A stretch of DNA of 64,000 nt from Gemmatimonadota bacterium (GTDB lineage Bacteria > JAAXHH01). The DNA lies in NCBI GenBank assembly GCA_009837395.1, contig VXTP01000004.1, positions 1 through 64,000 on the forward strand, given 5' to 3'. The notes below the pieces were generated by a model. It did not search any database. It had not been told where the DNA came from and worked only from the letters and a program-made list of their open reading frames with translations. Both the position numbers and the translations under genes were made by a program. Each line of letters opens with the position of its first letter. Position 1 is the stretch's first letter. Below, in pieces: positions 18,108-63,959 of the stretch.

Positions 18108-19337
18108 ATGGCGGTGGCGGGATATTTCGACCAGTTATCCGGCTTTACGGCGGACATGCTGCTCGGCGCGCTGATCGACGCGGGCTCGGACTGCGAGGAG
18201 ATCGCGGCGTCCTTGAAACGCCACTATGGCGTGGACTGCGAGATCAACGTCACCCGGGAGCGGGTCGATGGGACGCAGGTGACGTTCGCCTCCCTGTCCT
18301 GCGTCGAAGCGTCCGTCCCCGAGACCTACCGGGCCATCCCGGACGGGGGTGCGGGCACGCCGGCCGGCACGCTCATCGGCCGGGTAATTGGTCACCTCGA
18401 GCAGAACGTGAACGAACGCTGGGGGGCACCGGACCAGACGCCAGGACACGCGACGGACCACGCACCAGCCCACACGCCGTCGGTGGAGGCACTGGGCGGC
18501 CGCCACACGGCATTGCGTATCCTCGCCCTCTGCAACGCCCTGCATCTTCTCGGGATCGATACCCTCCACCACGAGGCACTGCCCTTTGCCACGGGCATCG
18601 ATGCTACGCCTCCCCTGCTCGCCGCCCTTATGCGGGGCGCAACCGTGCGGCCCGTCGACCGCGCCCCCGTCGACCTGGCGGGATGCGCCGTGCTGACCGC
18701 GCTTTCCGCGGGTTCGATGCACGGGTCCGGCTTTACGCTGCGGTCGGTGGGCTGCGGGGGCAACGACGACGCCCGTGGTGATGGAAACAGGGTACGGCTG
18801 TGCGTGGGAGAAGTCGCCCGTCTGGGGGAAGTCACCCGCCAGGGGGAAATCGCCCACATGGGAGGTATCGACCAGGCCGGCGACCGTGCGTCCGTGCAGG
18901 TTTTGGAAACTCAGATCGACGATATGAATCCGCAGTTCTACGGCCACGTCCTGGACCTGCTGCTCGACGCCGGCGCGGTGGACGCCTTTCTCACACCCGT
19001 GATCATGAAAAAGAGCAGGCCGGGCGTACTGCTCACCGTGCTGGCGCCAACCGCCCTGGTTGGCCGACTGGCCGAGGTGGTTTTCAGGGAAACGACGACC
19101 ATAGGCCTCAGAAGCTACCCCGTCTCCCGGAGCGTGTTGCCTCGCCGCGAAGCCAGGGCAGACACCCCCTTCGGCGCGATCCGGATCAAAGTCGTTCGGC
19201 AGGATAACGCCACGCGCTATACCCCCGAATACGAGGATTGCCGTCAGGCGGCGCTGAAGGCGGGGGTCCCGCTAGCGGAGGTATACGCGGCCGTCCACGA
19301 GGCCGCCGGCCAGATGGACCTGGACGACCTGCTGTGA
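18108..19337 (+). CDS. larC: Nickel insertion protein LarC, with a divergent N-terminal domain
   Basis: LarC is the CTP-dependent cyclometallase that inserts nickel into the pincer cofactor. 409 aa in one continuous frame, with no frameshift between LarC1 and LarC2. The LarC2 part (about 264-409) is well conserved: VLETQIDDMNPQFYGH, MKKSRPGVLLTVL, FRETTTIGLR and YEDCRQAALKAGVPL. The LarC1 part is degraded: the usual DCFSGISGDM start is DQLSGFTADM, and the HEVGxxDSIxD motif is replaced by VEALGGRHTALRI. Two repeat-rich inserts lie at residues about 104-125 and 233-256. The stop overlaps the GTG start of the ECF ATPase. Function may be kept through LarC2 (inference). Confidence 0.88.
   Translation: MAVAGYFDQLSGFTADMLLGALIDAGSDCEEIAASLKRHYGVDCEINVTRERVDGTQVTFASLSCVEASVPETYRAIPDGGAGTPAGTLIGRVIGHLEQNVNERWGAPDQTPGHATDHAPAHTPSVEALGGRHTALRILALCNALHLLGIDTLHHEALPFATGIDATPPLLAALMRGATVRPVDRAPVDLAGCAVLTALSAGSMHGSGFTLRSVGCGGNDDARGDGNRVRLCVGEVARLGEVTRQGEIAHMGGIDQAGDRASVQVLETQIDDMNPQFYGHVLDLLLDAGAVDAFLTPVIMKKSRPGVLLTVLAPTALVGRLAEVVFRETTTIGLRSYPVSRSVLPRREARADTPFGAIRIKVVRQDNATRYTPEYEDCRQAALKAGVPLAEVYAAVHEAAGQMDLDDLL
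18804..18875 (+). repeat. Four 18-bp tandem repeats inside larC
   Basis: Units at 18804, 18822, 18840 and 18858 encode VGEVAR, LGEVTR, QGEIAH and MGGIDQ. They sit between the LarC1 and LarC2 parts, in frame, so they lengthen the linker without breaking the gene. Confidence 0.85.
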
Positions 19338-21268
19338 TCGTCGTCGAAGACGTATCCTTCAGCTACCACCTCCCGACGGGGGACGAGGTCCCCACGCTGA
19401 GGGGCCTGTCCCTTGAGATCGGCGATTCCGGAAGCCTGGCCGTCATCGGCCCCAACGGTTCGGGCAAGAGCACGCTCGCCCGCTGCCTCAACGGATTGAT
19501 CGTGCCCCGGTCCGGCCGGGTCCTGGTGGACGGCCTGGACACGGCGGTCCCGGAGAACAAGTGGCCGGTCCATCAACGGGCCGGCATGATCTTCCAGAAC
19601 CCGGATAACCAGCTGGTCTCCACCACGGTGGAACGGGAAGTGGCTTTCGGCCTGGAGAACCTCGGCCTGCCTTCCGCAGAGATCCACGACCGCGTCGCGT
19701 GGGCCTTAAGCCGTTTCAACCTGGAGAAGTACCGCCAATATCCTCCCCACAGGCTGTCCGGCGGCGAGAAACAACGCCTGGCTATCGCCGCCGTGGCGTC
19801 CATGCGCCCCCGTTACCTCATCTGCGACGAGCCCACCTCGTCGCTAGACCCGGGCGACCGGCGGGACATCCTCGACCTGCTCCTGTCGATCGTGGAGGAA
19901 TACCGGTTGAGCGTGGTCTTCATAACGCAGTCACCGGAAGAAGCCGTCCGGATGGACCGCATCGCACTGGTGGTGGACGGGGATATCGCCGCCGAGGGAA
20001 CGCCGGAGGAGGTATACCGGGAATCCGGCCGGCTCGCGGCGCACGGGCTCGACGCGCCGCTGGCCAAGCGGCTGGCGGACGCCCTGTGTACGCGCGGCGT
20101 CGCGGTTCCGGCCGGCATTGTCCGTCCGGAGCCCCTGGTCCGGTGGCTGGCACACAAGGCGCACGAGTCACCCAGGGCGCTCGATCCGCCCGGAGCACCC
20201 GAGTCGCCCAGGGCGCCCGAATCGCCACCGTCCCGCCGGCAGGACGGCACGCCGCCGGGCGATGTCCGTTCGGCACCGGACGCGCCGGATGAGAAACCGG
20301 CCATGTCGCCAACCACCCCGCCCATGATCGCTTTCGACCAGGTGTGCCATACCTACTCCCCCGGCACTTCCCTTGAGATCCTCGCGTTGCGCGATGTGAC
20401 CACCCTGGTGTTCCCCGGGGAGTGCGTCGCGCTGACCGGGCCGAACGGTTCGGGTAAATCCACGATGATTCAGCACCTCAACCGCCTGCTTAAGGCGGAT
20501 TCGGGCACGGTACGGGTCGAGGGGAAGGATGTGTCGTCCCCGGAGACCGACCTGCGTAAGCTGCGTCAGAAAGTGGGACTGGTCTTCCAGTTTCCCGAGG
20601 CGCAGTTGTTCGAGGAAACCGTCTTCGACGACGTGGCCTTCGGCCCTCGGCAAACGGGTGTTGCGGCATCGGAAATCCCGGGCATGGTCAACGGGGCGCT
20701 CGAGCGGGTCGGCCTGGATCCCGGCCGGTTCTTACACCGGCATCCCCTGTCTCTGAGCGGCGGGGAAAAACGCCGGGCCGCGATCGCCGGAATCCTGGCC
20801 ATGGAGCCTTCCGTCCTCGCGCTCGACGAACCCACGTCCGGACTCGATCCGCAAAGCGTACGGCAGGTCGAGGCGATTTTCAGGGCCTGCAAGGCGAAGG
20901 GGACGACCCTTTTCCTGATCACCCATGACATGGACCTGATCTCCCGCCTGGCGGACCGGATCCTGGTCATGGAAAACGGCGGCATCACGGCGGATACCAC
21001 GCCGGTTCGCCTGTTCGGCCGGGCGGACGGCGTCGGCGCGCGGCCGCAGGAACAGCCCGGTCGGCCCGGTCGGGTGGATGGCGTCGACCCGCGGCCGCAG
21101 GAACGGCCCGGTCGGCCCGGGCTGTGCGATCTGCTGACCGCCGCCTGCGAAGCCGGGATCCCCGTCGATCCCGCCTGTTTCGACCTGGAAGAAGCCGCGG
21201 ACATGATCCGTGCGAGCGTTTTCAACGACAATCATCACGCCAGCCCCGGGGAAAGCCAACCATGCTAG
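19334..21268 (+). CDS. Fused double ECF/cobalt-type ABC ATPase (EcfA-EcfA')
   Basis: Two ATP-binding cassettes in one 644-aa chain; most ECF systems use two separate genes. Domain 1 (about 1-265) has Walker A GPNGSGKS at 39-46, the Q-loop FQNPDNQL typical of ECF A subunits, LSGGEKQR and ICDEPTSSLD. Domain 2 (about 335-585) has GPNGSGKS, FQFPEAQLFEE, LSGGEKRR and LALDEPTSGLD. The linker (about 275-330) is made of Pro/Ser/Glu repeats, and a duplicated 17-residue unit lies in the C-terminal tail. Start is GTG 19334, overlapping the larC stop as GTGA. Next to larBC it might power nickel uptake, as larMNQO does in Lactobacillus, or serve several S components. No T subunit is visible. Confidence 0.9.
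   Translation: MIVVEDVSFSYHLPTGDEVPTLRGLSLEIGDSGSLAVIGPNGSGKSTLARCLNGLIVPRSGRVLVDGLDTAVPENKWPVHQRAGMIFQNPDNQLVSTTVEREVAFGLENLGLPSAEIHDRVAWALSRFNLEKYRQYPPHRLSGGEKQRLAIAAVASMRPRYLICDEPTSSLDPGDRRDILDLLLSIVEEYRLSVVFITQSPEEAVRMDRIALVVDGDIAAEGTPEEVYRESGRLAAHGLDAPLAKRLADALCTRGVAVPAGIVRPEPLVRWLAHKAHESPRALDPPGAPESPRAPESPPSRRQDGTPPGDVRSAPDAPDEKPAMSPTTPPMIAFDQVCHTYSPGTSLEILALRDVTTLVFPGECVALTGPNGSGKSTMIQHLNRLLKADSGTVRVEGKDVSSPETDLRKLRQKVGLVFQFPEAQLFEETVFDDVAFGPRQTGVAASEIPGMVNGALERVGLDPGRFLHRHPLSLSGGEKRRAAIAGILAMEPSVLALDEPTSGLDPQSVRQVEAIFRACKAKGTTLFLITHDMDLISRLADRILVMENGGITADTTPVRLFGRADGVGARPQEQPGRPGRVDGVDPRPQERPGRPGLCDLLTAACEAGIPVDPACFDLEEAADMIRASVFNDNHHASPGESQPC
20164..20320 (+). repeat. Pro/Ser/Glu linker built from 9-bp units between the two ECF ATPases
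   Basis: At 20164-20235 the sequence runs in degenerate 9-bp units of the type GAGTCACCC / AGGGCGCTC / GATCCGCCC / GGAGCACCC. They encode repeated ES/P-R-A-P triplets. The following 85 bp stay Pro/Asp/Ala-rich. It joins two conserved domains. Confidence 0.6.
21026..21124 (+). repeat. 51-bp tandem duplication near the 3' end of the ECF ATPase gene
   Basis: Unit 1 (21026-21076) and unit 2 (21077-21124) share GCGGCCGCAGGAAC and CCCGGTCGGCCCGG blocks. They encode DGVGARPQEQPGRPGRV and a near copy, a Gly/Pro/Arg-rich extension after the second ATPase domain. Confidence 0.85.
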
Positions 21269-22218: not shown

Positions 22219-22872
22219 CTACTGGCGCTTCAGCTCCACGCGCCGGTTCTGCGCCAGGGCGCTTTCGTCACTGCCCATGACCGACTGCCGCTCTTCACCG
22301 TAACTGACGGTCTCGATGCGGTCTTCCGCCACACCGGCATCCACGAGGTACGCCTTGATCGCCTCGGCGCGCCGTTCACCCAGCGCCAGGTTGTATTCGA
22401 TCGTGCCCCGTTCATCGGTATGGCCTTCGACCACCACCCGGTCTTCGGGCTGGTACTCCCGCAGCTTGCGGGCGTTTTCATCCAGGACTGAACGCTGGTC
22501 CTCCCGGACGTCCGACCGGTCATAGTCGAAGTAGATGGTGGCCAGGGACATCATCTCCTGGTGCAGGGCCTCGGCCTCGGCCGCCCTGCGGGCTTCCTCT
22601 TCGGCCAGGCGCCGGGCTTCTTCCTCGGCCGCCAGACGGGCTTCCTCTTCGGCTATGCGCCGGGCTTCGGCCTCGGCCGCCAGGCGGGCTTCCTCTTCAG
22701 CCTGTACCGCCCTGATCGAATCCGCGATCGCCTGTTGACGCGCCGCCTCCATCGCGGCCAGTTCCTCCGCGGAAGGTCCCCGGGTTACGGCGCAGCAAGC
22801 GCCCATCCATACGGGAGCGGCGACCAGCACACAGAGCGCCAGGACCGATGCCGTATTGCTCCATCGCTTCAT
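22219..22872 (-). CDS. pal: Peptidoglycan-associated lipoprotein Pal, copy 1
   Basis: Outer-membrane lipoprotein that binds peptidoglycan and TolB/TolA, 217 aa. The signal peptide ends at a lipobox-like MGAC (Cys26). Residues about 34-112 form one long Ala/Glu/Arg helix containing six 8-residue repeats (AEEEARLA type). The C-terminal OmpA-like domain (about 110-217) has IYFDYDRSDV, the meso-DAP-binding GHTDERGTIEYN, and ALGERRAEAI. E. coli Pal has only a short linker and about 173 residues, so the helix is extra. It has its own promoter (22969-22997) and terminator. A paralogue lies directly upstream (23139-23780). Confidence 0.93.
   Translation of the reverse strand: MKRWSNTASVLALCVLVAAPVWMGACCAVTRGPSAEELAAMEAARQQAIADSIRAVQAEEEARLAAEAEARRIAEEEARLAAEEEARRLAEEEARRAAEAEALHQEMMSLATIYFDYDRSDVREDQRSVLDENARKLREYQPEDRVVVEGHTDERGTIEYNLALGERRAEAIKAYLVDAGVAEDRIETVSYGEERQSVMGSDESALAQNRRVELKRQ
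22558..22701 (-). repeat. Six 24-bp repeats encoding an 8-residue Ala/Glu/Arg motif in pal copy 1
   Basis: The units encode AEEEARLA, AEAEARRI, AEEEARLA, AEEEARRL, AEEEARRA and AEAEALHQ. A period of eight is not the heptad of a classic coiled coil; it fits a charged single helix of the TolA domain II kind. A matching block of five and a half units lies in copy 2 at about 23484-23615. Confidence 0.85.
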
Positions 22873-23138: not shown

Positions 23139-23780
23139 TTACTGGCGCTTCAACTCGGCGCGCCGGTTCTGCGACCACGCGCTTTCGTCGTCACCCATGA
23201 CCGCCGGCTGCTCTTCACCGTAACTGACGGTCTCTATGCGGCCGTCCGCCACGCCGGCATCCGTGAGGTACGTCTTGACGGCCTGGGCGCGCTGCTCGCC
23301 CAGCGCCAGGTTGTATTCGATCGTACCCCGTTCATCGCAGTGGCCCTCGACCACCACCGAGTCTTCCGGCTGGTACTCCCGCAGCTTGCGGGCGTTCTCG
23401 TCCAGGGCCGAACGCTGATCTTCCCGGATGTTCGACATGTCGTAATCGAAGTAGATGGTGGACAGGGACATCATCTCCTGGTGCCGGGCTTCGGCCGCCC
23501 TGCGGGCTTCCTCTTCGGCCGCGAGACGGGCCGCTTCCTCGGCCGCGAGACGGGCTTCCTCTTCGGCCAGGCGCCGGGCTTCTTCCTCGGCCGCGAGACG
23601 GGCTTCCTCTTCAGCGCGTACCGCTCTGAGTGAATCCGCTATGGCCTGTTGACGCGCGGCCTCCATCGCGGCCAGTTCCTCCGCGGACGGGCCCCTGGCA
23701 CAGGCGGCACCCATCCACGCGGGAACGGTGACCATCACACAGAGCGCCAGGATCGAATACGTGCTACGCCATCTTTTCAT
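23139..23780 (-). CDS. pal: Peptidoglycan-associated lipoprotein Pal, copy 2
   Basis: Paralogue of the pal gene at 22219-22872, 213 aa, same layout: signal peptide with MGAAC lipobox, a long Ala/Glu/Arg helix with 8-residue repeats, and an OmpA-like domain. Peptidoglycan-binding residues are kept (DERGTIEYN, ALGEQR), but the Thr of GHTDERGT is Cys. The two proteins are very alike in the OmpA domain and differ most in the helix repeats. It lies 167 bp downstream of cpoB and probably ends the tolQ-cpoB transcript at the terminator 23078-23104. Confidence 0.93.
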   Translation of the reverse strand: MKRWRSTYSILALCVMVTVPAWMGAACARGPSAEELAAMEAARQQAIADSLRAVRAEEEARLAAEEEARRLAEEEARLAAEEAARLAAEEEARRAAEARHQEMMSLSTIYFDYDMSNIREDQRSALDENARKLREYQPEDSVVVEGHCDERGTIEYNLALGEQRAQAVKTYLTDAGVADGRIETVSYGEEQPAVMGDDESAWSQNRRAELKRQ

Positions 23781-27314: not shown

Positions 27315-28075
27315 GGCCTCCCCGCGGTGGTCCGCAACTGGAGGATGTTCAGGACCGCGGTGGCCAGGTCCTCGAGTTCCAGGCCCAGCACCCGCGACCG
27401 CTGCACGAAGTAGTTATACGCCACCATGGCCGGGATCGCCACGGCCAGGCCCGCGATCGTCGTAATCAGGGCTTCCGCGATCCCGGGCGCCACGACCACG
27501 ATGTTGGTGGAGCCCTGGGTACTGATGTCCAGAAAGGCGGTCATGACGCCCCACACCGTTCCGAACAGGCCGAGAAAGGGGCACACGCTTCCAGCGGTGG
27601 CCAGCAGGGGAAGCCGTTGTTCGAACCGGGCCAGTTCCCGGTGGGCGGCCAGCCGCAGGTCGCGATAGACGGATTCCACCAGGTCCTGGTCCACCTCCAT
27701 CGCCCGGCCCGCCTGGTCGGCCTGGACCGCGGCGGCGGCCTGGACCGCGCTGCCGGCCGACTGGTCCGCGGCGCCGGCCTGACCTGCGGCGGCCGGAAAC
27801 GCCGGGGCGTACTTTTCGTAGACCTCGCGGTACACCGCGGCGGCGGGGCTGAACGGCAACTTCGAGGCGGTGGCGTAAACCTGTCTGTAGTTGCGCTCCG
27901 CCCTGAAGAACGCGAGGAATTCCCCCGACTGCGCCTGGGCCCGGCGAAAGTACCGCCAGCGCTCCGCCATGATCGCCCATGTAACGATAGAGAACATCAG
28001 GAGAACGACAATGACGGTCTTGGCGACGGCGCCCGAATCCAGAATCAGATTCAGGATACTGATTTCGGATGACAA
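27311..28075 (-). CDS. tolQ: Biopolymer transport protein TolQ/ExbB
   Basis: Inner-membrane proton-channel subunit. I place the start at TTG 28075, giving 254 aa that begin just before the first helix. A longer TTG start at 28156 would add residues unlike the family, and that TTG is the first half of a TTGACA box (28151-28156) that looks like a -35. Helices lie at about 12-33, 165-188 (GSVCPFLGLFGTVWGVMTAF) and 205-228. The cytoplasmic loop carries a low-complexity Ala/Gln/Asp insert (plus coordinates about 27705-27796) made of 9-bp units. It heads the tol operon. Confidence 0.9.
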   Translation of the reverse strand: MSSEISILNLILDSGAVAKTVIVVLLMFSIVTWAIMAERWRYFRRAQAQSGEFLAFFRAERNYRQVYATASKLPFSPAAAVYREVYEKYAPAFPAAAGQAGAADQSAGSAVQAAAAVQADQAGRAMEVDQDLVESVYRDLRLAAHRELARFEQRLPLLATAGSVCPFLGLFGTVWGVMTAFLDISTQGSTNIVVVAPGIAEALITTIAGLAVAIPAMVAYNYFVQRSRVLGLELEDLATAVLNILQLRTTAGRP

Positions 28076-30226: not shown

Positions 30227-33200
30227 CTAGAAATCGGCTCCGATCGTAAAGAAGAACTGGGTGTCGTTCAGCGCATGCCTCAGCCGGTACGAACGCGTGC
30301 CCGGGAACTCGGACTCGAGCCCACGGGGAACATTGGACAGGTTTTCGTTGTTGTACCATGCAGGCCGCCTTCCCAGGTCGAATTGGCGGGCGATATCGAA
30401 CTTCAGGATCAGGAAGCCGACACGCGAGCGCATGCCGATGCCGTAGGCCACCGCGAGCGGCCCGCCCGACAGCTCTTCCATCGTGCGCGGCCCCAGGCCG
30501 TTGTCCCGCACCAGGCCGCCGTCGACGAATTGGCCCACGTTTGGATAGCCGGCATACTGGTTGGCCTGGGTGGAACTGGTGGTCTGGTCCCAGGTGGCGC
30601 CCGCGTCCACGAACAGCGAACCGCGGATCTGCTGGAAGGCCAGCGGCAGCGGCCAGCCGAAGGCGAGGACCTCGATCAGGGGAAACCGGAACTCGGCGTT
30701 GACCAGCGCGACCTTGCTCCCCCAGACGGACCAGTAGTCCGCCCCGCGGAAGTTGAAGGGACCGCCGAATGGATACAGTTCCTGGTCCCGCCCGTCGCTG
30801 CTCAGTCCGTACAGGCGGAAGGCAAAGGCGTAACGCTGCAGGACATTGTAGTAGGCGCGGTAGTCGACGAAGACCCGCGTGAACTGCAGCTCGCCGAACG
30901 TTGGCGTCACTTCGACGCGGCCGCGGGCGCCGGCGATCGGGCCGGTCAGTCCGTACAGCGTGTGATCCGTGACCAGGGCGGCGGTGGGCTGGATGAAGTT
31001 GACGCTTCCCAGGCTTCCCCGCCTCGTCCGCCGGATGCCGAAGTAATTGAAACTGACGTCCACCAGTTCACGGGAACGGTTGACGCCCTGCACCCCCAGT
31101 TCGAACCGGTTGAACTTGCTGAAAGGACGGCTCAGGTAGAACTGGACGCCGCGGTTGATCTGGGTCGTCACCTGGGCAACCCAGGGACCCTGGTAGCTGC
31201 CGCGGAACAGGTCGTAGCTGTACTGGAACGCCGCCACGCTCCAGTTGACGCGCCGCGTCAGATTGGTGTACTGGAGCAGCAGGTTCGCGTCCGTCAGGGA
31301 TCCGAAAACGTTGGCGCCGACGAGTATCTTGTGGTTGTTCAGAATGTCGCTGAAGGAAAGGACGGAACTGCCCACGAGTCCGACGTGCGTGGAGTACCCG
31401 GCATTCCCCCCCAGGTAGTCCAGCCCGAATTTGGGGGAGTATTTCCGCTTCGTGAACGTACCGTCGGTCCAGGCGGTCGTATCCGGCAACTCGCCCGCCG
31501 GACCGATACCCCCTGCGATGGGTCCGAAGGGGAACTGCGGCGTCTCCAGGAGGCCGGAACCCGTCGACGGTTCGGGCATCTCCCCGGGCGCGGCCGACTC
31601 TGCGGCCGACTCATTGATGGACTCCGCGACAGACTCCGCGGCGGACGTCGTGTCCGGCGGCGCGGTAAGCACGGTCTGGATCGTGGTTATCTTTTCCCGT
31701 TCCGGGATCCCGGACGGTGGTCCCGCCTCGGATGCGGTGTCCGGAGCAGTGGACGGCGCGGCGGCCTCCGTCGCTGCCGGCGAAGATCCTTCCTCGTCCC
31801 CGGAGGCGGTTTCTTCCGATGATCCTTCCTCGACCCCGGAGGCGGTTTCTTCCGATGATCCTTCCGCGTCCCCGGAGGCGAGGGGTTCATCCGGTGGTTC
31901 GGTTCTCAGAGGCGGCGCCAGTTGCTGCGCATCGGGCGACGCACCGGGCGTCGCCGCCTTTTCGTGGTCGTAGGGTTCCTTCATCAACGACACCGGGTCG
32001 GTGATGGAAAACAGGTCGAATCCCCCCCAGGACAGGGCGGAAAAGACCATGCGGTCCGACTTCTGCGCCCAGCTGATGGCGGGTCCGGCGGCGGTTACGT
32101 TGGTCACCCCGGTCAGTACGTTGGTAATCTGGTAGGTCTCGCCGTTCTCCATGTCCCTGATGAATATGTTGGACACGCCGGTGCGATTGGAAATGAACGC
32201 GATTTTGCTGCCGTCCGCCGACCACTGCGGCGAAATGCTCTTGCCGATCTGGTCCGGGATCTTCTCGACCTCTCCCGTTTCCAGGTCATACAGCGCCAGC
32301 TGCTGGTATCCGAAGGTGAGCGTTCGGAAATTGGTCACGTCGCCCCGGTCCGAGGAAAAGGCGATCGTCTTGCCGTCCGGCGACCATACGGGGTCCCGGT
32401 CCGTGTACCGGTCCCGGGTAAGGGCCTTCAGGTTCCCGCCCGCGGAATCCACCACGTACAGGTCGGACTGCCCTCCCTGGAGGCCGACGAAGACCAGCTT
32501 TTCACCGTCCGGCGACCAGCTCGGCGACGTGGCGCCGTCGAGATTGACCTTGATGCGCCGGATCACCTTCTTCCTTCGGACGTCCATGATATACAGGGCG
32601 TCCCGCGCCCCCACCTTGGCCGGGAAGGCGATGTACTGCTCATCGGGCGACCAGGAAATGGACGTGGAAAAGAACCGGAGAGACTCGAAATCGGCCGAGC
32701 GCTCGCCTTCGACCAGCTTGGAGATAACTTCGCCGTTGATGGCGGAGGCCAGGTAGATATCGTTGTACAGGCTTCGGTTGGAAATGAAGACCAGCTTGTC
32801 GCCCCGCGGCGAAATCGCCGGGGCGAGGTGCAGGCCCGCCCTGGATTCCCGGACGTCGGTCAGTTGACGGGCGAAGGCCTGCGGCTTTTCGTAGTCCTCG
32901 ATCTGTGGCAGGTAGGTCTTGCGCACGTGCTCGTTCCACTCGTCGGACAGCCTTTCGATGTCCTTGCCGATGGACGAGCGGAAGGCTTCGTTCACGTTCC
33001 GCATGCGGGCCGTCTTGCGGAGTATCTCGCCGATCTTCCGGTCTCCGTACCGGTCGCCGATGTAGGCGAACAGCGCCTGTCCGAACCGGTAGACGCCGAA
33101 ACTGTAGTCCATGGCGGGAATGGTCGGGGGCAGATAGCCCTGCAGCGCCGCGTCACGCAGCCACATGTGGGTATAGGCGTCGATGCGGCCGAGCGACAGG

Positions 33201-44421: not shown

Positions 44422-44443
44422 ATCGGCTCCGTTACCCTATGCG

Positions 44444-44506
44444 GCGGACCGGGCGGACCAGGTAGACTGGGCGGACGAGGCGGACCAGGCGGTCAAGCCG
44501 GACCAG
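44444..44506. repeat. Seven 9-bp tandem units in an intergenic gap
   Basis: Units: GCGGACCGG, GCGGACCAG, GTAGACTGG, GCGGACGAG, GCGGACCAG, GCGGTCAAG, CCGGACCAG. They fill most of the 94-bp gap between the sulfatase stop and the proline dehydrogenase start. The same unit occurs inside coding regions at 48723-48758 and 63048-63101. Confidence 0.9.
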
Positions 44507-44515
44507 GCATACCAA

Positions 44516-46084: not shown

Positions 46085-46502
46085 GTGGGATCTCCGCGCG
46101 CTGCGGGGTGCGGCCGCGCGCAGCGGCGAAAGACCGCACGGCGCGACGGGCGGCAATGGCGCCGCCTGTACGGTAATATGCAGCCGTGTTTCCCGATAGG
46201 CAAAAGCATATTCTGATATGGATGCACGCGCGCGGGTGCACGCCGCCGGCCGGGGAGTGGCCGGGGAAAGGGCGGGGAGAGGCCGGGTGGAAATTACAAG
46301 TGCATCCGCACAGGGGAAAATCGGAGAGGTTTTGTGAATGGGATGGACGAAAGGAATGTATGCAGTACGTCTCGCCGTTCGATATCGCCGCGTGAGACCA
46401 AGGGGGCTCGAAAAAACGCAACCATTTCGGTCGTTACCCTGTCTTAGATGCAGCGCGTGAATCGATGGTCGGCGAGGACCCCAAAAGGCTGGAGGACATA
46501 CC
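46085..46502. other. Divergent intergenic region, no gene
   Basis: 418 bp between the sulfatase (minus) and the DUF5916 gene (plus). It holds a candidate minus-strand promoter at 46175-46203 and GGAGG at 46490-46494 for the plus-strand gene. I see no small gene or repeat in it. Confidence 0.55.
46175..46203 (-). promoter_or_regulatory. Candidate promoter of the sulfatase gene
   Basis: Minus-strand TTGCCT (46198-46203), a 17-bp spacer and CATATT (46175-46180), each four of six. The leader is about 84 nt. Confidence 0.35.
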
Positions 46503-49247
46503 TTGTTTCTGAACAGACTGCATCGGTGGACGATCATCCTGTCCGCCCTGATCATAGTGGGACCCGCGGAATCCGAAGCGCGTCAGCCGGCACCGGAGAA
46601 ACGGGTGTACAATACCCGGCACATCACGTCGCTGCCCCCGGACATCGACGGCAGGGGCGATGATCCGGCCTGGAACGACGTGGAGTGGTCCGGCGACTTT
46701 ACCCAGCTGGACCCGGACGACGGCGGGGAACCCACACAGCAGACGGCCTTCAAGATCCTTTTCGACGATCACAACCTCTACGTGCTGATCCGGGCCTTCG
46801 ATACCGAACCGGACCAGATTACCCACCGCGTGACCCGGCGGGACGACTTTGACAACGACTGGGTGGAGATCCATTTCGACAGCTACCACGACAAGCGCAC
46901 GGCTTTTTCCTTCACGCTGTCCTCCTCCGGCGGGCGGGGCGACGAGGCCATATCGAACGACGGCGACGACTGGGACTCGAGCTGGGACCCCGTCTGGTTC
47001 GGCGCGTCCACCATCGACGAAGAGGGATGGCTTGCCGAGATGCGCATACCCTTAAGCCAGTTGCGGTTCTCCGGCGAGGAGGGACAGGTATGGGGCCTGC
47101 AGGTACAGAGAAGGCTGTACCGCCGCCAGGAACGTTCCGGGTGGCAGCACATCCACCGAAATTCGCCGGGCTGGGTCAGCCTGTTCGGGGAACTGCGCGG
47201 TCTTGAAGGGATCGAATCTTCCCACCGGATCGAGATCCTGCCCTACGTGGTGGGCGACCTCAACCGGTTCCAGGCCGAAGCGCAGAACCCCTTCCGCGAC
47301 GGCCAGCGCGCCGACGGGCGCATCGGACTGGACGGCAAGATCGGGCTCGCCGGGAACATGACCATGGACCTGGCCGTGAACCCCGACTTCGGCCAGGTCG
47401 AGGCGGATCCTTCGCGGGTCAACCTGTCGGCCTTCGAGCTGTTCTTCGAAGAGCGGCGGCCCCTCTTCGTCGAAGGGAAGAACATCACCGAATTCCAGGT
47501 CGGCGGCGGCGGTCCATTCTGGAACGATCGGCTGTTCTACTCGCGGCGTATCGGCCGGTCTCCCCAGCGGAGCCCGGACCTCTCAGACGGCCAGACCATG
47601 GACAAGCCCCGGAATACGCCCATACTCGCCGCCGCGAAGATTACCGGCAAGACGCCGGGCGGCCTGTCCATCGGCATCGTGGACGCGGTGACCGCGGAAA
47701 CCGCCGCCCAGATAGACACGAAGGGCTCGCGGAGCGAGGAGTCCGTGGAACCGCTGACCAACTACCTGATCGCGCGTCTTCAGCAGGACTTCAACGACGG
47801 GGGTTCGTCACTGGGCACGATGCTCACGGCGACCAACCGGAATAACAACGAGACCCACTTCGATTTCCTCAACCAGGCGGCCTACACGGGCGGGATCGAT
47901 TTCCGCCACCAGTGGAGCGACCGGACCTACTGGCTTAACGCGAGCATGTCATTCAGCCACATCCGGGGCGAACCGGAGGCGATTACCCGCGTGCAGCGCA
48001 ATTCCGCACGGTACTACCAGCGCCCCGACGCCGACTACGTGACCCTCGACTCCACGCTGACCGCCCTGAGCGGCCACGGCGGCAGCTTCAGCGTGGGCCG
48101 GTCGGGCAACAGCCCGTGGAACATAGGCATCGGCGGCACCTGGCGGTCGCCGGGCCTCGAACTGAACGACGTGGGATTCCTGCGCCAGGCCGACGTTTTC
48201 ATGCAGAACAGCTGGTTCGGTTACCGGTCGGAAAAACCGAACCGGATCTTTCGGGAGTACAACCTGTTCCTGAACCAGTGGCAGGGCTTCACCTTCGGCG
48301 GGGATCGGAAGTTCCTGGGGGGCAACATCAACGGGGGCGGGCAGTTCAACAACTACTGGTGGGTGTGGTTCAACGTAAACTCGGAGATCGAAGGCCTTTC
48401 CACCACCGCCCTGCGCGGCGGGCCGGCCCTCAAATCACCGGGCAACGTGGAATTCAACTTCGACGTCGACACCGATGGACGCAAACCGCTCAGTTTCGGT
48501 GTGGGCGGCGGCCTCAACCGGCGCCGCGATGACGCGGGTCACTCGAGCTGGGTGTACCTGTCCATGCGGTACCGGCCGAGTAACGCCATGAACATCCGCA
48601 TCAACCCGTTTTTCGACACCGCCCGGAACGAATTGCAGTACGTGTCCAATGAAACGTTCGACGACGCCGGCCTGACGGGCCAAGCCGGCCTGACGGGCCA
48701 AGCCGGCCTGACGGGCCCGGCCTCCCAGGCTTCCCAGGCGGACCAGACGGACCAGGCTGACCGCTACCTGCTGGGCCGCGTCGATCAGAAGACGCTGGGG
48801 ATCGGTATCCGGCTCAACTACAGCATCACCAACAACATGTCCATTCAGTACTACGGCCAGCCCTTCGTGTCGGCCGGCCGCTACGACCGGTTCAAGCGGA
48901 TAACCAACCCGCGTGCCGACCGGTTCGCGGACCGTTTTGAACTGCTTTCGGGCGGCCAGCTGGCCTACGACGATGCAGACGAAGCCTACAGCGTGGATGA
49001 GAATATGGACGGACGGACCGACTATTCCTTCGACGATCCCGACTTCAACTTCCTTCAGTTCCGATCGAACCTGGTATTGCGGTGGGAGTATACGCCGGGC
49101 TCGACGCTGTTCCTCGTGTGGCAGCAGCAGCGCAGCCGCTCGGGCGGCACGGGTGAGTTCGACGCGGGGCAGGACCTGAACAACCTGTTCGATACCTATC
49201 CCTCGAACATCTTCCTGCTGAAGTTCAACTACTGGTTCTCGCTCTAG
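46503..49247 (+). CDS. DUF5916 outer-membrane protein with a CBM9-like domain
   Basis: 914 aa with a signal peptide (about 1-27, ends SEARQ). The N-terminal domain (about 35-215) resembles carbohydrate-binding family 9: PPDIDGRGDDPAWND, FKILFDDHNLYVLI and ISQLRF-like strands. The remainder (about 230-914) is a DUF5916 beta-barrel, with MDLAVNPDFGQVEADPSRVN and FFEERRPLFVEGKN, and a C-terminus ending YWFSL. A TTG start at 46503 has GGAGG 8 bp upstream. A repeat insert lies at residues about 722-752. The family is common in FCB bacteria and its role is unknown; outer-membrane binding or transport of glycans is a guess. Confidence 0.88.
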   Translation: MFLNRLHRWTIILSALIIVGPAESEARQPAPEKRVYNTRHITSLPPDIDGRGDDPAWNDVEWSGDFTQLDPDDGGEPTQQTAFKILFDDHNLYVLIRAFDTEPDQITHRVTRRDDFDNDWVEIHFDSYHDKRTAFSFTLSSSGGRGDEAISNDGDDWDSSWDPVWFGASTIDEEGWLAEMRIPLSQLRFSGEEGQVWGLQVQRRLYRRQERSGWQHIHRNSPGWVSLFGELRGLEGIESSHRIEILPYVVGDLNRFQAEAQNPFRDGQRADGRIGLDGKIGLAGNMTMDLAVNPDFGQVEADPSRVNLSAFELFFEERRPLFVEGKNITEFQVGGGGPFWNDRLFYSRRIGRSPQRSPDLSDGQTMDKPRNTPILAAAKITGKTPGGLSIGIVDAVTAETAAQIDTKGSRSEESVEPLTNYLIARLQQDFNDGGSSLGTMLTATNRNNNETHFDFLNQAAYTGGIDFRHQWSDRTYWLNASMSFSHIRGEPEAITRVQRNSARYYQRPDADYVTLDSTLTALSGHGGSFSVGRSGNSPWNIGIGGTWRSPGLELNDVGFLRQADVFMQNSWFGYRSEKPNRIFREYNLFLNQWQGFTFGGDRKFLGGNINGGGQFNNYWWVWFNVNSEIEGLSTTALRGGPALKSPGNVEFNFDVDTDGRKPLSFGVGGGLNRRRDDAGHSSWVYLSMRYRPSNAMNIRINPFFDTARNELQYVSNETFDDAGLTGQAGLTGQAGLTGPASQASQADQTDQADRYLLGRVDQKTLGIGIRLNYSITNNMSIQYYGQPFVSAGRYDRFKRITNPRADRFADRFELLSGGQLAYDDADEAYSVDENMDGRTDYSFDDPDFNFLQFRSNLVLRWEYTPGSTLFLVWQQQRSRSGGTGEFDAGQDLNNLFDTYPSNIFLLKFNYWFSL
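48666..48758 (+). repeat. 18-bp (x3) then 9-bp (x4) tandem repeats in the DUF5916 gene
   Basis: Three units of GCCGGCCTGACGGGCCAA from 48666, 48684 and 48702, then TCCCAGGCT, TCCCAGGCG, GACCAGACG and GACCAGGCT (48723-48758). They encode AGLTGQ repeats followed by SQA/DQT/DQA triplets in a barrel loop. Confidence 0.92.
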
Positions 49248-52245: not shown

Positions 52246-54309
52246 CTAAACTTCGTCCAGCAGGTTTTCCACGATGTAGTCCCTGCGCTCGGGCGTGTTC
52301 TTGCCCATGTAGAAGGTAAGGGTTTCCGGTATGCTGTGGATGGAACGGACGTTGACCTTCACGAGCCGCATGTCGGAACCGATAAACTGGCCGAATTCGC
52401 CGGGCGAGATCTCGCCCAGGCCCTTGAACCGGGTCACTTCCGCCCCACGTATGCGATCAAGGGCCGCGTTGCGCTCCTTCTCGCTGTAGCAGTAGACGGT
52501 TTCCTTCGTGTTGCGCACCCGGAAGAGCGGCGTTTCGAGGATATGGACGTGGCCCGCGAGCACCATCTCCTCGAAGTAGCTCAGGAAGAAGGTCATCAGG
52601 AGATTGCGGATGTGGTAGCCGTCGTAATCGGCGTCGGTCGCGATGATCACCTTGTTGAACCGCAGGTTCGAAATCCCTTCCTCGATGCCGAGGGCCATCA
52701 TGAGATTGTAGAGTTCCTCGTTCTTGTAAATGGCCGCCCGCGTGCGGGAGAAGACGTTCAGCGGGACGCCCTTGAGTCCGAAGATCGCCTGGGTCAGCGG
52801 GTCCCGCGCCGAGACCATCGAACCGGCGGCCGAAGGCCCCTCGGTAATGAAGATCGAGGAATCCTCCCCGAACTTCGCGTGATCGTAGTGGTACTTGCAG
52901 TCCTTGAAATTTGGGATCTTGATGGCGATGCGCCGGGCCGCCTCGCGGGCTTCCTTCTTGACAGCATTTAGTTCCTTCCGCAGACGCTCATTCTGGGAGA
53001 TCTTCTCCTGGATTTTCTGGGCGGACTCCTGGTTCTTGTGCAGGAAGTCCACTACGGCGCTGCGGATCTCGGAGACGAGCCATCCCCGGATCTCGGTATT
53101 GCCCAGCTTGTTCTTGGTCTGGGATTCGAAAATGGGCTCCTTCAGCTTGATGGCGATGGCGCCCGCTATCGACTCCCGCACGTCCACCCCGCCGTAACTC
53201 TTCTTGAAGTACTCGTTGACGCCCTTGAGGATGCCCTCGCGGAACGCGCTCTGGTGGGACCCGCCGTCCGCGGTGTACTGGCCGTTCACGAAGGAGAATA
53301 GCGTCTCGCCGTAATTCGTGGTGTGCGTGAAGGAGAACTCGATATACTGGCTCTTGTGGTACGAGGGCTCGTAGAGGACGTTCTCGCCCACCTCGGCCTT
53401 GAGGAAGTCCAGCAGACCATACTTTGAAACGAAGCGCTTCCTGTTGAAGACCAGGCGGAGGCCGCTGTTCAGGCAGGCGTAGTTCCACATGCGGCGTTCG
53501 ACGTAATCCGGCTGGAAGGCGTATTCCCCGAAGATCTCCTCGTCGGGCAGGAACTCGACATAGGTGCCGTCCGGCTCGTCCGCGGCGCCCTCCTTCTGCC
53601 CGAGGAGCTGTCCCCGCTCGTACACCGCCTCCGCGTAGCGCCCGTTCCGGTAGGCCACGACGCGGAAATCGACGGAAAGGGCGTTGACCGCCTTGGCGCC
53701 CACGCCGTTCAGTCCCACGCTGAACTGAAAGACCTCGTCGTTGTACTTGGCGCCTGTGTTGATGATCGAAGTGCACTCCACGACCTTGCCGAGGGGAATC
53801 CCGCGGCCGAAGTCGCGGACGCGGACCCGGTTGTCTTCGATGGACACGTCGACCTGCCGGCCGTGGCCCATGATGAACTCGTCCACGGCGTTGTCGATCA
53901 CTTCCTTGAGGAGGACGTAGATGCCGTCTTCGGGATCGCTCCCGTTCCCGAGCCGGCCGATATACATGCCGGTACGAAGCCGGATGTGTTCCAGCGACGA
54001 GAGGGTCTTGACCTTGCTTTCGTCGTAGACGGCGGCGTCCTTAGCGGCCGCAGTGTCCGCAGCGTCCGCAGCGGCCGAGGTGGCCGGAGATCCGTTGCCG
54101 TCGGCGGGCCGTGCGGACGAAGATCCGTTACTTTCATCCGTTCGCGCACCCTTTTCCGATTCGACCGGTTTACCGTTGGTCGCGGCTGCGCTGACGCGCG
54201 AGCCATTCCCGTTCCCGGTCCGCCCCTTCGCCCCTTCCTCCCGCGGCGTAAGCAGGTCGAGCTGGGTGTGCTGGTCCTCTCCGTTTCTCGAACCGTTCCG
54301 GGTCGCCAT
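52246..54309 (-). CDS. parE: DNA topoisomerase IV subunit B-like ATPase
   Basis: ATPase subunit of the type IIA topoisomerase, 687 aa from the ATG at 54309. The GHKL ATP site shows EVIDNAVDEF (136-145), VRDFGRGIPLG and the GLNGVGAKAVNAL lid. The TOPRIM domain has FITEGPSAAGSM, where the usual EGDSA Asp is Pro, and the DxD motif ATDADYDGYHIRNLL is intact. The N-terminal 97 residues are a Gly/Asn/Ser/Ala-rich extension before the conserved fold, absent from typical ParE. Two near-identical promoter units lie upstream. It pairs with parC. Confidence 0.93.
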   Translation of the reverse strand: MATRNGSRNGEDQHTQLDLLTPREEGAKGRTGNGNGSRVSAAATNGKPVESEKGARTDESNGSSSARPADGNGSPATSAAADAADTAAAKDAAVYDESKVKTLSSLEHIRLRTGMYIGRLGNGSDPEDGIYVLLKEVIDNAVDEFIMGHGRQVDVSIEDNRVRVRDFGRGIPLGKVVECTSIINTGAKYNDEVFQFSVGLNGVGAKAVNALSVDFRVVAYRNGRYAEAVYERGQLLGQKEGAADEPDGTYVEFLPDEEIFGEYAFQPDYVERRMWNYACLNSGLRLVFNRKRFVSKYGLLDFLKAEVGENVLYEPSYHKSQYIEFSFTHTTNYGETLFSFVNGQYTADGGSHQSAFREGILKGVNEYFKKSYGGVDVRESIAGAIAIKLKEPIFESQTKNKLGNTEIRGWLVSEIRSAVVDFLHKNQESAQKIQEKISQNERLRKELNAVKKEAREAARRIAIKIPNFKDCKYHYDHAKFGEDSSIFITEGPSAAGSMVSARDPLTQAIFGLKGVPLNVFSRTRAAIYKNEELYNLMMALGIEEGISNLRFNKVIIATDADYDGYHIRNLLMTFFLSYFEEMVLAGHVHILETPLFRVRNTKETVYCYSEKERNAALDRIRGAEVTRFKGLGEISPGEFGQFIGSDMRLVKVNVRSIHSIPETLTFYMGKNTPERRDYIVENLLDEV

Positions 54310-59282: not shown

Positions 59283-62200
59283 TCACCGCAGGTCTTTCAA
59301 CACCGCGTAACGCCGCGCTTCTTCTCTCGATCCGGCCAGGACCAGGTAAGCGGTTTCCTCGCTGACCCCGCGGGCAGCCACCTCGTGACCCCGCATGAGC
59401 TTCAGGTGACCCCCGGCGTCGCCCCAACTGTCCATCCGGACTCCGCTCCCAGGCGAAACGAGCACGAAGGTACGCCCCGTGCGCGGGTTGGCGGCGGCGG
59501 CCCAGTGTCCGCCATCCTCTTCGACATACCACGGGCGACGCTTCCGTTCGCCGTCCGCCGAGAACAGGACGGTGTCGTCCATCTCGCCGTCGGGCTTCAG
59601 GAACAGATGCCATCCGCCCCTTAAGCGCCGGTGCGCGTCGCTCTCGTTCAGCAGCCTCCAGACCAGTTTGATTACCGTTCCGCCCCCCACGGTCAGGGTA
59701 TCGAGTTCCAGGGTCAGGCCGCGGGAAGCCTCTTTGGACAACGCCGCCCGTTGTCGCACGCCCGTCCACTCAAGGCCACGGGCGCGATAGGAGACGGGCT
59801 CCGCGGCGAACGTCTCGTCCTCGAGGGACTCCGTCCAGGACAGGCGGTCCAAAACGATCTCGGGTTGCAGTCCACCATACCAGGGGTAGCTCCAGCCGAA
59901 GGCCCCGGGTTCGGGAAAGGCGGAAGCCAGGTGGTTGCATTCGCCGCCGGCATCCCGGATGGCGCACACGGATCCGAGGAAGGTGGGGGCGACGTCGATT
60001 TCGAGCCGCTGGTTACGAATGGTATACACCCTGTGGCCCCCGGATTCGACGTGACCCCCGGATTCGACCTCGTCGATTTCCACGGCCGATCCGTCCGTCA
60101 GCCGGACGAGGGGCAGTTCGACCTCCGCGCCACGCTCCCCGCTGTCCAGCACCATGCGGCCGGTGTAGACGCCGGGCGGCCGGGACGTGGAAAGCCGCAC
60201 CGAACCCACGAAGGGTTGCCGCCAGTCGATCTCGGAGAATGAGACCCATGGCGGGTCGCAGCTCCACCCGTCCGGCGTGACGAAGGAAACAGTCCCGCTG
60301 GCCTTCCGGGATTTCCACTGCGCAATCCGGAAACGGAGGTCGGTCTCGTCCCCGCTTACCACGGCGACGGGAGGATCGGTCGATACCTCGAATGTATCCA
60401 GGATCCGCAGGGCGGGTTCGCTTTCTCCGACCGGTTCCCCCCGGACACGTCGCCACAGCCGGCGCACACCTTGCCAGCCACCGTCCCCGACGCGCAGTCT
60501 CAGGACGCCGAAGGAGACGCGGGACTGGGGCGCACAGGTCGTCTCCACGCTCACCGACTGGAATTCAAAACCGTTCCATTCGACCTCGTCCAGGCCGTCG
60601 GGCCACAGGACCCCTATCGTTCCATGGGGCATTTCGAAGGCGCCCCACGTCTCCGCGTAGCGGTCGCCCATCTTGAAATCGTGGTCGTCCGGCACGGACC
60701 TCTCGCTGCAACGGGCCTTGAGGATCCCTTCCCGCAGCGGCAGCGCCAGCGTCGTCTGGTCCGGCCCCCCGTTCGTGACGAACTGGTAGAGGTGGCTGGT
60801 GCGGGGGTCGAAACCGGTGTTCTCCAGCGTGTGCTCCACGGTGATGACCGGCCCGGCGTTCAACCGGAAGATCCGGCTGAAGACGAGGCCGGGGGACTTC
60901 CGGGGCTCATAGGTCGCCGTAAGGACCACGCCGTTCCCGTCCCCTTCGGCTTTCAGCTTGAATTCCGACTCGCTGTATTCGCTGGGCCACTTCGGCGGGA
61001 TGGGACGGCCGCCTTCCGTTCCCAGGTACCTCCCGGTGGACCGGTCGCTGATCTTCAGCTGGCCGCCCTCGGCCTCCAGGGTCGCCCGGAAGATCTCGTT
61101 CTCGAACCGAATCGCGCCGTCCTGGTGGTACAACAGCCCGCCCGGCGCCAGAGTGAAGACGGCGTGTTTCGCATCCGCCAGGTCCACCGGCTTGTCTTCC
61201 CTTTCCAGGCGTCCCGACAGGGTCAGTCCGAATACGCCCGGGCGGTCCGCTTCCAGGACGGATTCGAATCCTGCGTATCCCCGGGCAGGCACCACGACGG
61301 ATCGTGCGCTCCGGTCCACCGAGAGGCCCTCCGATGCCGTGATGCGGACCTGCGCTTTCACGTCATCGGCCAACTGACTGTGCAGGGTTACGCGCACCGG
61401 CCGTGGTGCGCCGGGCGCAAGGGTGATCTCCCCGGGATCGATGGAAAAGGACATCTCGACCCGCGGCCGGATACCGGTGGCGAGGTCGATGGATAGATCG
61501 TCCCAACGTATGCTGGTGCGCACCCTCGGCGCGGTCTTCTTCACGTCCACGGATTTGGCTTTGGCCGACACGCTCACCGGCGCTTCCAGGGAAACCGTCT
61601 CGCCGGGTCCCAACGTCTTCCGGCAGTGGTAGTCGATGGACAAATCGCCCGTCTCTTTCGCCGTCAACGCGACGGTGGCCGGAACGTCCTTCCGGTTCTC
61701 CAGTTTCCACCGAAGGACCGTCTGCCCGCCCCTTACCGGCTCGATGTCGTCCACCGTAGCCCATGCGGACAACTCCGCCGTCTCCACCGCGGTCACGTGC
61801 CGGGCTTCGCGGTCCACCCGGACCGTCAATTCCTCCCGGTTCCCGGCGGACCCGGCTTCATCCGCGCCAGTCCCGGTGCTACCGAAGGCCGGCGTCTCCC
61901 CGGCCCTAAACCGGTAGGTAAAAACCCGCAGTCCTTCCCAGGTTTCGTCGTCCGGTTGCTGGTCGATCCGCCGCTCCAGCGACTCGTACCAGTCGTGCCG
62001 GTCGAAGAAGTACCGCGTACAGGGCATCTCGAGGATGGCGGGCATGTAGTTGCGCATGATCGGCCAGCCACCGGCGTCCCAGAAGAAGCCCGTCCGCTTG
62101 TAGGGCGCCATAGCCTTCACGTTCCCCGACCAGGTATCGAGATCGAGGTGGTAATACTTGTCCTCGATGGCCTTCTCCACCGAGCGAACGAGCAACCGCC

Positions 62201-62537: not shown

Positions 62538-63959
62538 TCAAGTGGTCCCGCCATGGTCCGGACTACCGCGTCGACCGGGCGGAGGAACCGCATTGTCGTG
62601 GGGGATCGCCCCGGCTTCGTTCACTTCGTAGCCGAACCGCTCCAGGTAATGGCCGGCGGGAAGCAACGCGTCGCCACGCCGGGCCATCTCTTGATGCAAC
62701 TGGTCGTCCAGCCGGCGCTGCAGGTCGGCATATTCCTCACGGCCGGCCAGGTTGGACAACTGGCAGGGATCCTCCCGGTTGTCGTACAGCAGCCAGGGAC
62801 CGTCGAGATTGCGTACATAAGTGTGCCCAGCGGTGCGGATTCCCCGCCAGGGCTGGCCCCGGTATTCCGAGAAGGGCGCGATGCTCATGATATAGGCGGC
62901 ATCGTTGCCCGTAAAGGCCTCGCCACGCACCGCCGGGGCGTGGTCCCGCCCCTCGCAGGATCCGGGGACGGGGATGCCTGCCAGACCGAGGAGCGTCGGC
63001 ATGATGTCCACCACGTTGAAGGGGGTGCCGATCCGGAGTCCCGCGTGCGCCTGGCCAGCCTGTCCAGCCTGGTCCGCCTGGGCTGCCTGGTCCGCCTGGT
63101 CCGGACAACGCATGACGAAAGGGACTCGGATGGACTCGTCCCAGGGATGCTGCTTGCGCTGCCGGCCCTGCGATCCGAGCATGTCGCCGTGGTCCGACGT
63201 ATAAACGAAAATCGTTTCGTCCATCAGTCCCAGTTCATCGAGGACGCCACCGAGCCGCGCCAACTGGTCGTCGAGGGCAGTGATATGCGCATAGTAACCC
63301 GCCAGGTCGGTCCGGGCAGGATCGGGGCAGTTGGGACGCACCTCCACTTCCTCCGGCGGATACAGGTCGAGGTAGCGGGCGGGTACGGCATCGTAGGGAT
63401 TGTGCGGCGGCCCCCACGACAGCACCAGCGCGAAGGGCCGGTCCCGACTCCGGGCGCGTATGTAATCGATGGCCAGGGAAGTCTGCGCCTCCGCATCGTA
63501 CCCGTCCCAGTACAGCGGCGCTTCCGAATCCCGGTAGTACAGGGAGCGCATGTAATCGTGGGTGCAGTTGCCCACGGCCCAGAAATCGAACCCCTGCCTG
63601 CGGGGACCGGGCGGCGTGAACCCGCTCCGGGACGGGCCGTCGAGATGCCATTTCCCGATATAGGCCGTATCGTAGCCCGCCGCGCGCAGGACCGTGCCCA
63701 GGGTCGGCCGGTCCGCCGGAAGCCGCACGTCGTTCATGAACATGCCTGTCGTCAACGGATACTGTCCGGTCAGAAGAGCCGCCCGCCAGGGCGTGCAGAC
63801 CGGGATGTTTGAGACTGCCAGGTCGAAGACGACGCCTTCGTCGGCCATGCGGTCCATGTACGGCGTCCGCACCTGGCGGCTGCCGCCGAAGCCGGTGCTG
63901 CACCATCGGTGCTGGTCGCTGAACACGAACACGATATTCCTGGCGCGGTGTCCGGACAC
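62538..63959 (-). CDS. Sulfatase with a CTPWR active-site motif
   Basis: Formylglycine-type sulfatase, 473 aa, starting with GTG at 63959 (AAGGAG 10 bp upstream). Asp15-Gln16 (VFSDQHRWC) and TSDHGDMLGSQG give the metal ligands. The active-site motif is CTPWR (55-59), not CxPSR; the core CxPxR needed by formylglycine-generating enzyme is kept. IGKWHLDG and LVLSWGPPHNPYD are typical. A repeat insert lies at about residues 287-305 (DQADQAAQADQA). An out-of-frame ATG 7 bp upstream has better Shine-Dalgarno spacing. The GNAT fusion follows by 33 bp. Confidence 0.92.
   Translation of the reverse strand: MSGHRARNIVFVFSDQHRWCSTGFGGSRQVRTPYMDRMADEGVVFDLAVSNIPVCTPWRAALLTGQYPLTTGMFMNDVRLPADRPTLGTVLRAAGYDTAYIGKWHLDGPSRSGFTPPGPRRQGFDFWAVGNCTHDYMRSLYYRDSEAPLYWDGYDAEAQTSLAIDYIRARSRDRPFALVLSWGPPHNPYDAVPARYLDLYPPEEVEVRPNCPDPARTDLAGYYAHITALDDQLARLGGVLDELGLMDETIFVYTSDHGDMLGSQGRQRKQHPWDESIRVPFVMRCPDQADQAAQADQAGQAGQAHAGLRIGTPFNVVDIMPTLLGLAGIPVPGSCEGRDHAPAVRGEAFTGNDAAYIMSIAPFSEYRGQPWRGIRTAGHTYVRNLDGPWLLYDNREDPCQLSNLAGREEYADLQRRLDDQLHQEMARRGDALLPAGHYLERFGYEVNEAGAIPHDNAVPPPGRRGSPDHGGTT
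63048..63101 (-). repeat. Six 9-bp tandem units in the second sulfatase
   Basis: Plus-strand units CGCCTGGCC, AGCCTGTCC, AGCCTGGTC, CGCCTGGGC, TGCCTGGTC and CGCCTGGTC; on the coding strand they are GACCAGGCG-type and encode DQA/AQA/GQA triplets. This is the same unit as in the intergenic array at 44444-44506. Confidence 0.93.

Follow-up and report, generated by a model that had tools for sequence, protein, structure and literature searches.

What causes unrelated genes of one bacterium, and the DNA between them, to carry tandem repeats built on the same nine bases? This question is raised by a 64,000-nucleotide stretch of a Gemmatimonadota bacterium (JAAXHH01; assembly GCA_009837395.1, contig VXTP01000004.1, positions 1 to 64,000), referred to here as the window, which is contig 21 of a 3.80-Mb genome in 47 contigs. 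An earlier note, made from the letters of the window, described in-frame arrays with a common core in several genes and in one intergenic gap, and proposed that they expand at the level of DNA. The analysis described here indicates that these arrays probably belong to a genus-wide family of hypervariable minisatellites sharing the 9-bp unit GCNGRCCRG, one form of which is GCGGACCAG, and that the family is probably generated by local tandem amplification that favors this DNA unit and is filtered for reading frame.

The abundance of the family was assessed in a sample comprising the window and three other contigs of the same genome (C24, C36 and C42), 1.26 Mb in all, and a nine-bp array was assigned to the family if it lay within two changes of the core, compared on the ring. 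By this definition 27 of 44 nine-bp arrays are family members, compared with approximately 3.2 expected from the 7.25% of random genomic 9-mers that qualify, and the proportion is 25 of 41 when the window, the stretch that first drew attention to the core, is excluded. The family share differs among contigs (18/24 in C42, 3/8 in C24, 4/9 in C36 and 2/3 in the window; 9/20 without C42) and climbs with array score, from 52/134 to 13/18. Four of the family arrays on C42 lie inside 5 kb (G000:C42 173308-178225). The core is enriched at a period of 9 bp (15/22, 2.0 expected), at 18 bp (19/51, 8.0 expected) and at 27-54 bp (9/15, 3.2 expected); it is weakly raised at period 21 (10/32, 4.6 expected, none within one mismatch) and near chance at period 15 (5/41, 4.8 expected), at other multiples of three (11/39, 8.7 expected) and at periods that are not multiples of three (13/79, 12.0 expected). 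Within the window, GCGGACCAG occurs 7 times against 1.33 expected, a number reached in none of 100 dinucleotide shuffles.

The reach of the family beyond the window, which the earlier note had raised as a possibility, is evident both in this sample and throughout the genus. Three exact head-to-tail GCNGRCCRG units are present in every one of the 12 genus genomes, with 2 to 64 matches each when overlapping matches are counted, and in none of the 103 other genomes searched, among them two sister genera; in another phylum, the three-unit pattern is matched once in each of two genomes out of 80. With two units and at most two mismatches, again counting overlapping matches, a search of 59 genomes gives 92 matches in the genome under study, 34 to 168 in each of 11 other species of the genus, 4 and 1 in the two sister genera, and between 0 and 14 per genome in the remaining 45. 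Two exact units of the variant GCTGACCAG occur in eight of ten genus genomes and in none of six others. Within the unit, positions 5, 3 and 8 are the most variable; the GG at the unit junction is conserved, and a second GG (positions 3-4) is found in about half of the units, position 3 being G in 48 of 94. In one relative, a 9-bp family array reaches 10.7 copies (G006:C1, L270 6025-6120). The relatives are presumably sponge symbionts, to judge from isolate names and from the existence of PMC12993501. The repeated unit GCGGACCAG (for example, at window positions 44453-44461) is mirror-symmetric: reversed, it becomes one of its own rotations, which makes a reversed-pattern control uninformative for it. 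The repeat holds CCAGG across the unit junction as well as GGACC, both of which we take to resemble methylase sites. The 27-base pattern also matched 73 stretches in a viral collection of 2.9 million contigs; among 30 of these read in frame, with the frame guessed as the longest stop-free one, were collagen-like Gly-Pro-Pro readings, and the word can therefore arise elsewhere for protein reasons.

An array of this kind might simply reflect chance in GC-rich low-complexity sequence or the ordinary tandem-repeat load of bacteria. For arrays of all kinds this explanation has some purchase: Tandem Repeats Finder detects 180, 207, 266 and 270 arrays per Mb in the four samples of this genome, and five unrelated genomes, three of them near its GC content, have 50-150, not far under the lowest contig here; two sister genera, both lower in GC, have 35 and 85, all comparison samples being 20-200 kb each. 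Dinucleotide shuffles of three of the four samples (all but C36) give 8, 5 and 0 arrays per Mb. With intergenic DNA left unshuffled, the 72 arrays of all periods in C24 fall to 34-43 upon codon shuffling and to 51-52 upon synonymous shuffling. The nine-base family, however, is not accounted for in this way. Tandem Repeats Finder detects 22 period-9 arrays in the 1.26-Mb sample and none in samples of two sister and five unrelated genomes, which together hold 59 arrays over 0.70 Mb, while a second method finds a single nine-bp array in the comparison genomes, in G040, which is not of the family. In the comparison with codon-shuffled sequence that the earlier note had called for, codon shuffling within genes leaves a mean of 0.6 nine-bp arrays and 0.2 family arrays, compared with 32 and 20 observed. 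Together with the lack of three exact units in the 103 other genomes, these counts refute chance, within the limits of the tests made, as the source of the 9-bp family, and we regard this explanation as extremely unlikely. The genome bears both a broad load of tandem duplications, with many arrays of 15, 18 and 21 bp that lack the shared core, and one sequence-specific 9-bp family.

The placement of the family relative to genes points to a process acting on DNA. Of the 27 sampled family arrays, 22 are in genes and 5 are intergenic, and the in-gene arrays cover all six reading frames (sense 8, 3 and 5; antisense 3, 2 and 1). A DNA-level process, as well as the occurrence of the core on either strand, had been proposed from the window; both are borne out, the former because one unit is read in all six frames and is found in intergenic DNA. 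Selection at the protein level for an Ala-Asp-Gln-like peptide as a favored flexible linker, with the DNA likeness resulting from codon bias, would fit the finding that sense-frame 0, encoding this peptide, is the commonest (8/22, and 14/26 in a partly orthologous set) and that 151 of 159 in-gene arrays of all kinds have periods divisible by three, but it leaves 14 of the 22 in-gene family arrays outside that frame and the 5 intergenic arrays unexplained. Nor would it predict the loss of family arrays upon codon shuffling, or the result of synonymous shuffling of C24 and the window, in which proteins are kept and yet runs of period 18 fall from 21 to 10.0 and runs of period 9 from 6 to 2.7. 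In the commonest frame, unit changes at positions 5 and 8 alter the amino acid. We consider it quite unlikely that protein-level selection is the source of the family.

The family is not mainly intergenic, its intergenic share (5/27) being only slightly above the intergenic fraction of the DNA (10.5%). Among arrays of all kinds, periods divisible by three make up 151 of 159 in genes and 49 of 120 between genes, and array density is 909 per Mb between genes versus 141 per Mb in genes, a 6.4-fold difference. These contrasts in period and density are compatible with a DNA-level process filtered by selection. The in-gene periods also differ from those of phase-variation repeats, in which an in-gene unit that is not a multiple of three switches the frame.

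In the window itself, Tandem Repeats Finder detects 17 arrays with a score of at least 50 and a period of at most 100 bp (11 in genes, 6 intergenic). Gene calls were home-made and based on codon score, and may be mistaken for a small number of short genes. The arrays discussed below are the following, with lengths counted among six species.

18805..18855, + strand: 18-bp array in larC (Pfam Ni_insertion), residues 233-250; consensus three mismatches from the core and not counted as family; four lengths.
20158..20226, + strand: 18-bp array in a double ABC (ECF-type) ATPase gene, residues 275-298, ahead of the second ABC match (residues 352-502); three mismatches from the core; four lengths, two of them off three-base steps (probably alignment edges).
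21016..21120, + strand: 51-bp array in the same double ABC (ECF-type) ATPase gene, residues 561-596, past the second ABC match; five lengths.
22566-22702 and 23503-23612: 24/48-bp repeats in two neighboring OmpA-type genes, encoding Glu/Ala/Arg repeats.
27718..27793, - strand: core-family 18-bp array in a TolQ/ExbB-type gene, residues 95-120, just before the MotA_ExbB match (residues 125-234); six lengths in six species, with species-dependent unit variants.
31781..31880, - strand: 36-bp array in a peptidase-barrel protein gene, residues 614-647; not counted as family; three lengths.
44443..44508, + strand: core-family 9-bp array, intergenic by the codon-score gene calls, between a proline dehydrogenase gene (43573-44421, - strand) and a sulfatase gene (44516-46084, - strand); six lengths.
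48666..48762, + strand: 18-bp array (48666-48717) continuing into a core-family 9-bp array (48719-48762) in a DUF5916 gene, residues 722-753.
54035..54077, - strand: 9-bp array in a GyrB/ParE protein gene, near the N-terminus (residues 78-92), with the HATPase match from residue 127; three mismatches from the core; three lengths.
60033..60068, - strand: 18-bp array in the gene of a 1071-residue protein with an N-terminal GNAT match, residues 811-822; not family; three lengths.
63048..63103, - strand: core-family array (9/27 bp) in a sulfatase gene (62538-63959), residues 286-304; relatives G001 and G004 hold one and two core-like units here.

Tandem Repeats Finder thus recovers the arrays that had been noted in larC, the fused ECF ATPase, tolQ, the peptidase-barrel protein gene, the DUF5916 gene and one intergenic gap; the GyrB/ParE array had not been listed. 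Two sulfatase genes were said to bear arrays, and one does (62538-63959); the second (44516-46084) only flanks the intergenic array according to the gene calls, although with an upstream start (open reading frame 44516-46555) an 11-bp array at 46248 would be in-gene. Similarly, the core thought to be common to several arrays is clear at four sites, namely the TolQ/ExbB-type gene, the 44443-44508 gap, the DUF5916 gene and one sulfatase gene, but larC and the 18-bp ECF array are three mismatches removed, and not every listed array belongs to the family; the 51-bp ECF and 36-bp peptidase units are within two mismatches of the core, which is not unusual at such unit length. The coding copies do keep the frame, since all 11 in-gene arrays have periods divisible by three. 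The Glu/Ala/Arg repeats of the OmpA-type proteins probably form coiled coils.

The window is syntenic in five relatives, with 85-93% nucleotide identity, and lengths were compared using one genome for each of these six species. As predicted for expanding repeats, arrays differ in length between relatives: at 10 of 11 in-gene array sites, compared with 171 of 1905 random in-gene control sites, and three or more lengths are found at 9 of 11 sites compared with 73 of 1905. A few of the in-gene differences are off three-base steps, probably because of alignment edges. All six intergenic array sites vary, as do 83 of 95 intergenic controls. Of the gaps within genes in the six-way alignment, 108 have lengths divisible by three, and 47 of these are divisible by nine, a slight excess. 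The two OmpA-type arrays, one with a single length and one with two, behave unlike the nine remaining in-gene arrays. The intergenic 11-bp array at 15808-15834 has approximately 400 extra bases in species G001. Species poor in repeats retain core-like units, mostly one to three, at three of the four core-family loci: the sulfatase gene (G001 and G004), the DUF5916 gene (G002 and G004) and the TolQ gene (G002).

A shared unit at unlinked loci could also reflect dispersal, whether the arrays moved as a mobile element or were copied ectopically from one another by template switching. Dispersal would directly explain why the unit is common to these loci and why several of them bear pure arrays of a single variant such as GCGGACCGG or GCTGACCAG, but the arrays are locally homogeneous, units in 26 arrays of this genome differing at 1.09 of 9 positions within an array compared with 2.86 between arrays. 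In addition, the 200-bp flanks of 27 arrays have no homology beyond seven matches of 14-15 bp and one pair of overlapping flanks. A mobile element of the miniature inverted-repeat transposable element or repetitive extragenic palindromic type is rejected on the lack of homologous ends or flanks among these 27 arrays. Homogeneity within arrays together with unshared flanks therefore fits growth in place and not transposition. Ectopic copying is weakened only: among four loci in six species, mean unit differences are 2.66 at the same locus, 2.76 between loci of the same species, 2.77 between different loci of different species and 2.59 within an array, so that there is no species-wide unit dialect and no signal of ectopic concerted evolution in this small set, whose arrays are too decayed to decide the matter. 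On balance we think dispersal unlikely.

These observations suggest a model for the origin of the family. Arrays would start from short pre-existing stretches that resemble the unit, and would grow and shrink in place via replication slippage or unequal exchange, in a manner that favors GCNGRCCRG over other 9-mers. Within genes, the survivors would mainly be multiples of three situated in linkers, termini and loops, and the arrays would be mainly tolerated by-products, although occasional use by selection is possible. A stronger version, which is conceivable but rather doubtful, is that a sequence-preferring process in the genus, whether an enzyme or a feature of replication, expands GCNGRCCRG-like seeds wherever they occur, into dozens of unrelated proteins in all frames, essential ones included. 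Two candidate causes were rejected. Loss of mismatch repair is not a simple cause, as a search of 16 genomes, which covered 10 of the 12 genus genomes and neither sister genus, gives a MutS1 match in each, with 15 of the matches exceeding the cut-off. Hairpin potential is not a common cause, as good single-stranded folding is limited to some variants (z of -3.82, -2.71, -2.15 and -1.87) and the canonical unit gives z of -0.74 and +1.01. With respect to replication-strand bias, GC skew is weak in the sampled contigs and array orientation is mixed.

Several results weigh against local amplification of a preferred DNA unit. Plain MutS loss does not explain the family, and the canonical unit folds no better than usual. 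The family is also unevenly distributed, with 18 of its 27 sampled arrays on the single contig C42. The in-gene length test is biased in favor of variation by the choice of arrays in one of the compared genomes, and the variation seen is between species. At the four loci compared in six species, the units bear no trace of descent from a shared seed, and in G004 neither the TolQ site nor the intergenic site has a real seed. Finally, that the Ala-Asp-Gln frame is the commonest single one argues that there is some protein-level preference as well.

The proteins that carry family arrays are diverse. Outside the window there are 20 in-gene family arrays; the genes of 16 of these were run on Pfam, 15 of them having a Pfam family, and the other 4 arrays, in three genes spanning two sequence stretches, were left out of this run. 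The arrays are at the N-termini of a Mur ligase, an aminotransferase, a CorC-type protein, an outer-membrane efflux protein, a DUF3047 protein and a methyltransferase; where the Pfam match ends, or beyond it, in a phosphorylase, a thioredoxin and a HupE protein; between Pfam matches in a LacI-type regulator and DsbD; and, in another, among FG-GAP repeats. In TsaE, orotidine monophosphate (OMP) decarboxylase and QueA they are inside the domain match. The arrays of OMP decarboxylase (L188:16071-16802) and QueA (L199:12055-13275) are in conserved enzymes, and the QueA carrier has 407 residues against a 322-position profile. The mutS gene (G000:C23, L261 3810-3920) carries a 9-bp array encoding Gly-Ala-Asp repeats in the linker before the C-terminal part. 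Counted from where the match begins, MutS measures 882-887 residues in G004, G008 and G009 and 913-929 in G000, G001, G002, G003 and G006, so that the linker is short in three of eight comparable species; in G007 the gene is cut by a contig end.

Diversification of surface loops, which had been put forward as a possible function, would suit one carrier, the DUF5916 protein. In an AlphaFold model of this protein (19 sequences, mean predicted local distance difference test [pLDDT] score 74.9), the array forms a predicted loop at residues 722-751, with pLDDT below 50, between long strands at 696-718 and 753-776, and would fit a barrel loop. As a rule for the family, however, adaptive diversification of exposed loops is not supported: many of the proteins concerned are housekeeping enzymes, arrays occur in cytoplasmic enzymes as well as in proteins of DNA repair and topology (among the carriers are Mur ligase, TsaE, OMP decarboxylase, QueA, a LacI-type regulator, thioredoxin, MutS and GyrB/ParE), and arrays of all kinds are, as noted above, far denser between genes than in them. 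We consider this explanation very unlikely. If amplification of a preferred DNA unit is correct, the family offers a naturally occurring example, limited in the genomes searched to one genus, of tandem expansion that places a single nine-base word in unrelated proteins in all six frames. Such an example allows the contribution of mutation bias to bacterial linkers and loops to be told apart from that of protein selection, and a comparison of the 12 species with the sister genera makes it directly testable why certain short words expand.

As head-to-tail units of 6-100 bp whose copy number differs between related genomes, the arrays are minisatellites, or variable number tandem repeats, and with a core found at many unlinked loci above chance they constitute a dispersed, core-sharing family. 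The short tandemly repeated repetitive sequences of cyanobacteria are likewise family-type short tandem repeats dispersed in the genome, but their units are heptamers and thus not a multiple of three. The human hypervariable minisatellites of Jeffreys reportedly share a common core, many unlinked arrays having the same short GC-rich sequence; they are said to differ in being eukaryotic and mostly non-coding, with locus-dependent unit lengths. GGGNATC heptamer repeats of Xanthomonas and Nostoc form genome-wide arrays on both strands that are under-represented in genes, form quadruplexes and prefer four units (PMC4692102). They resemble the present family in being short arrays of one core, found on both strands and highly variable in their number of units; in contrast, the unit here is 9 nucleotides and not 7, 22 of 27 arrays are in genes, and G occupies position 3 in 48 of 94 units. 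TAACTGA direct repeats of marine Beggiatoaceae form 169 sets in one genome, most just upstream of start codons, with related heptamers rarely or never repeated (PMC4679880); like the family described here they have a single core, but it is a 7-mer found mainly between genes. No report of a GCNGRCCRG tandem family appeared among the papers listed in the literature searches. Core-sharing families of tandem repeats are thus known in bacteria, and one that has a nine-base unit and resides largely within genes would be a new form of them.

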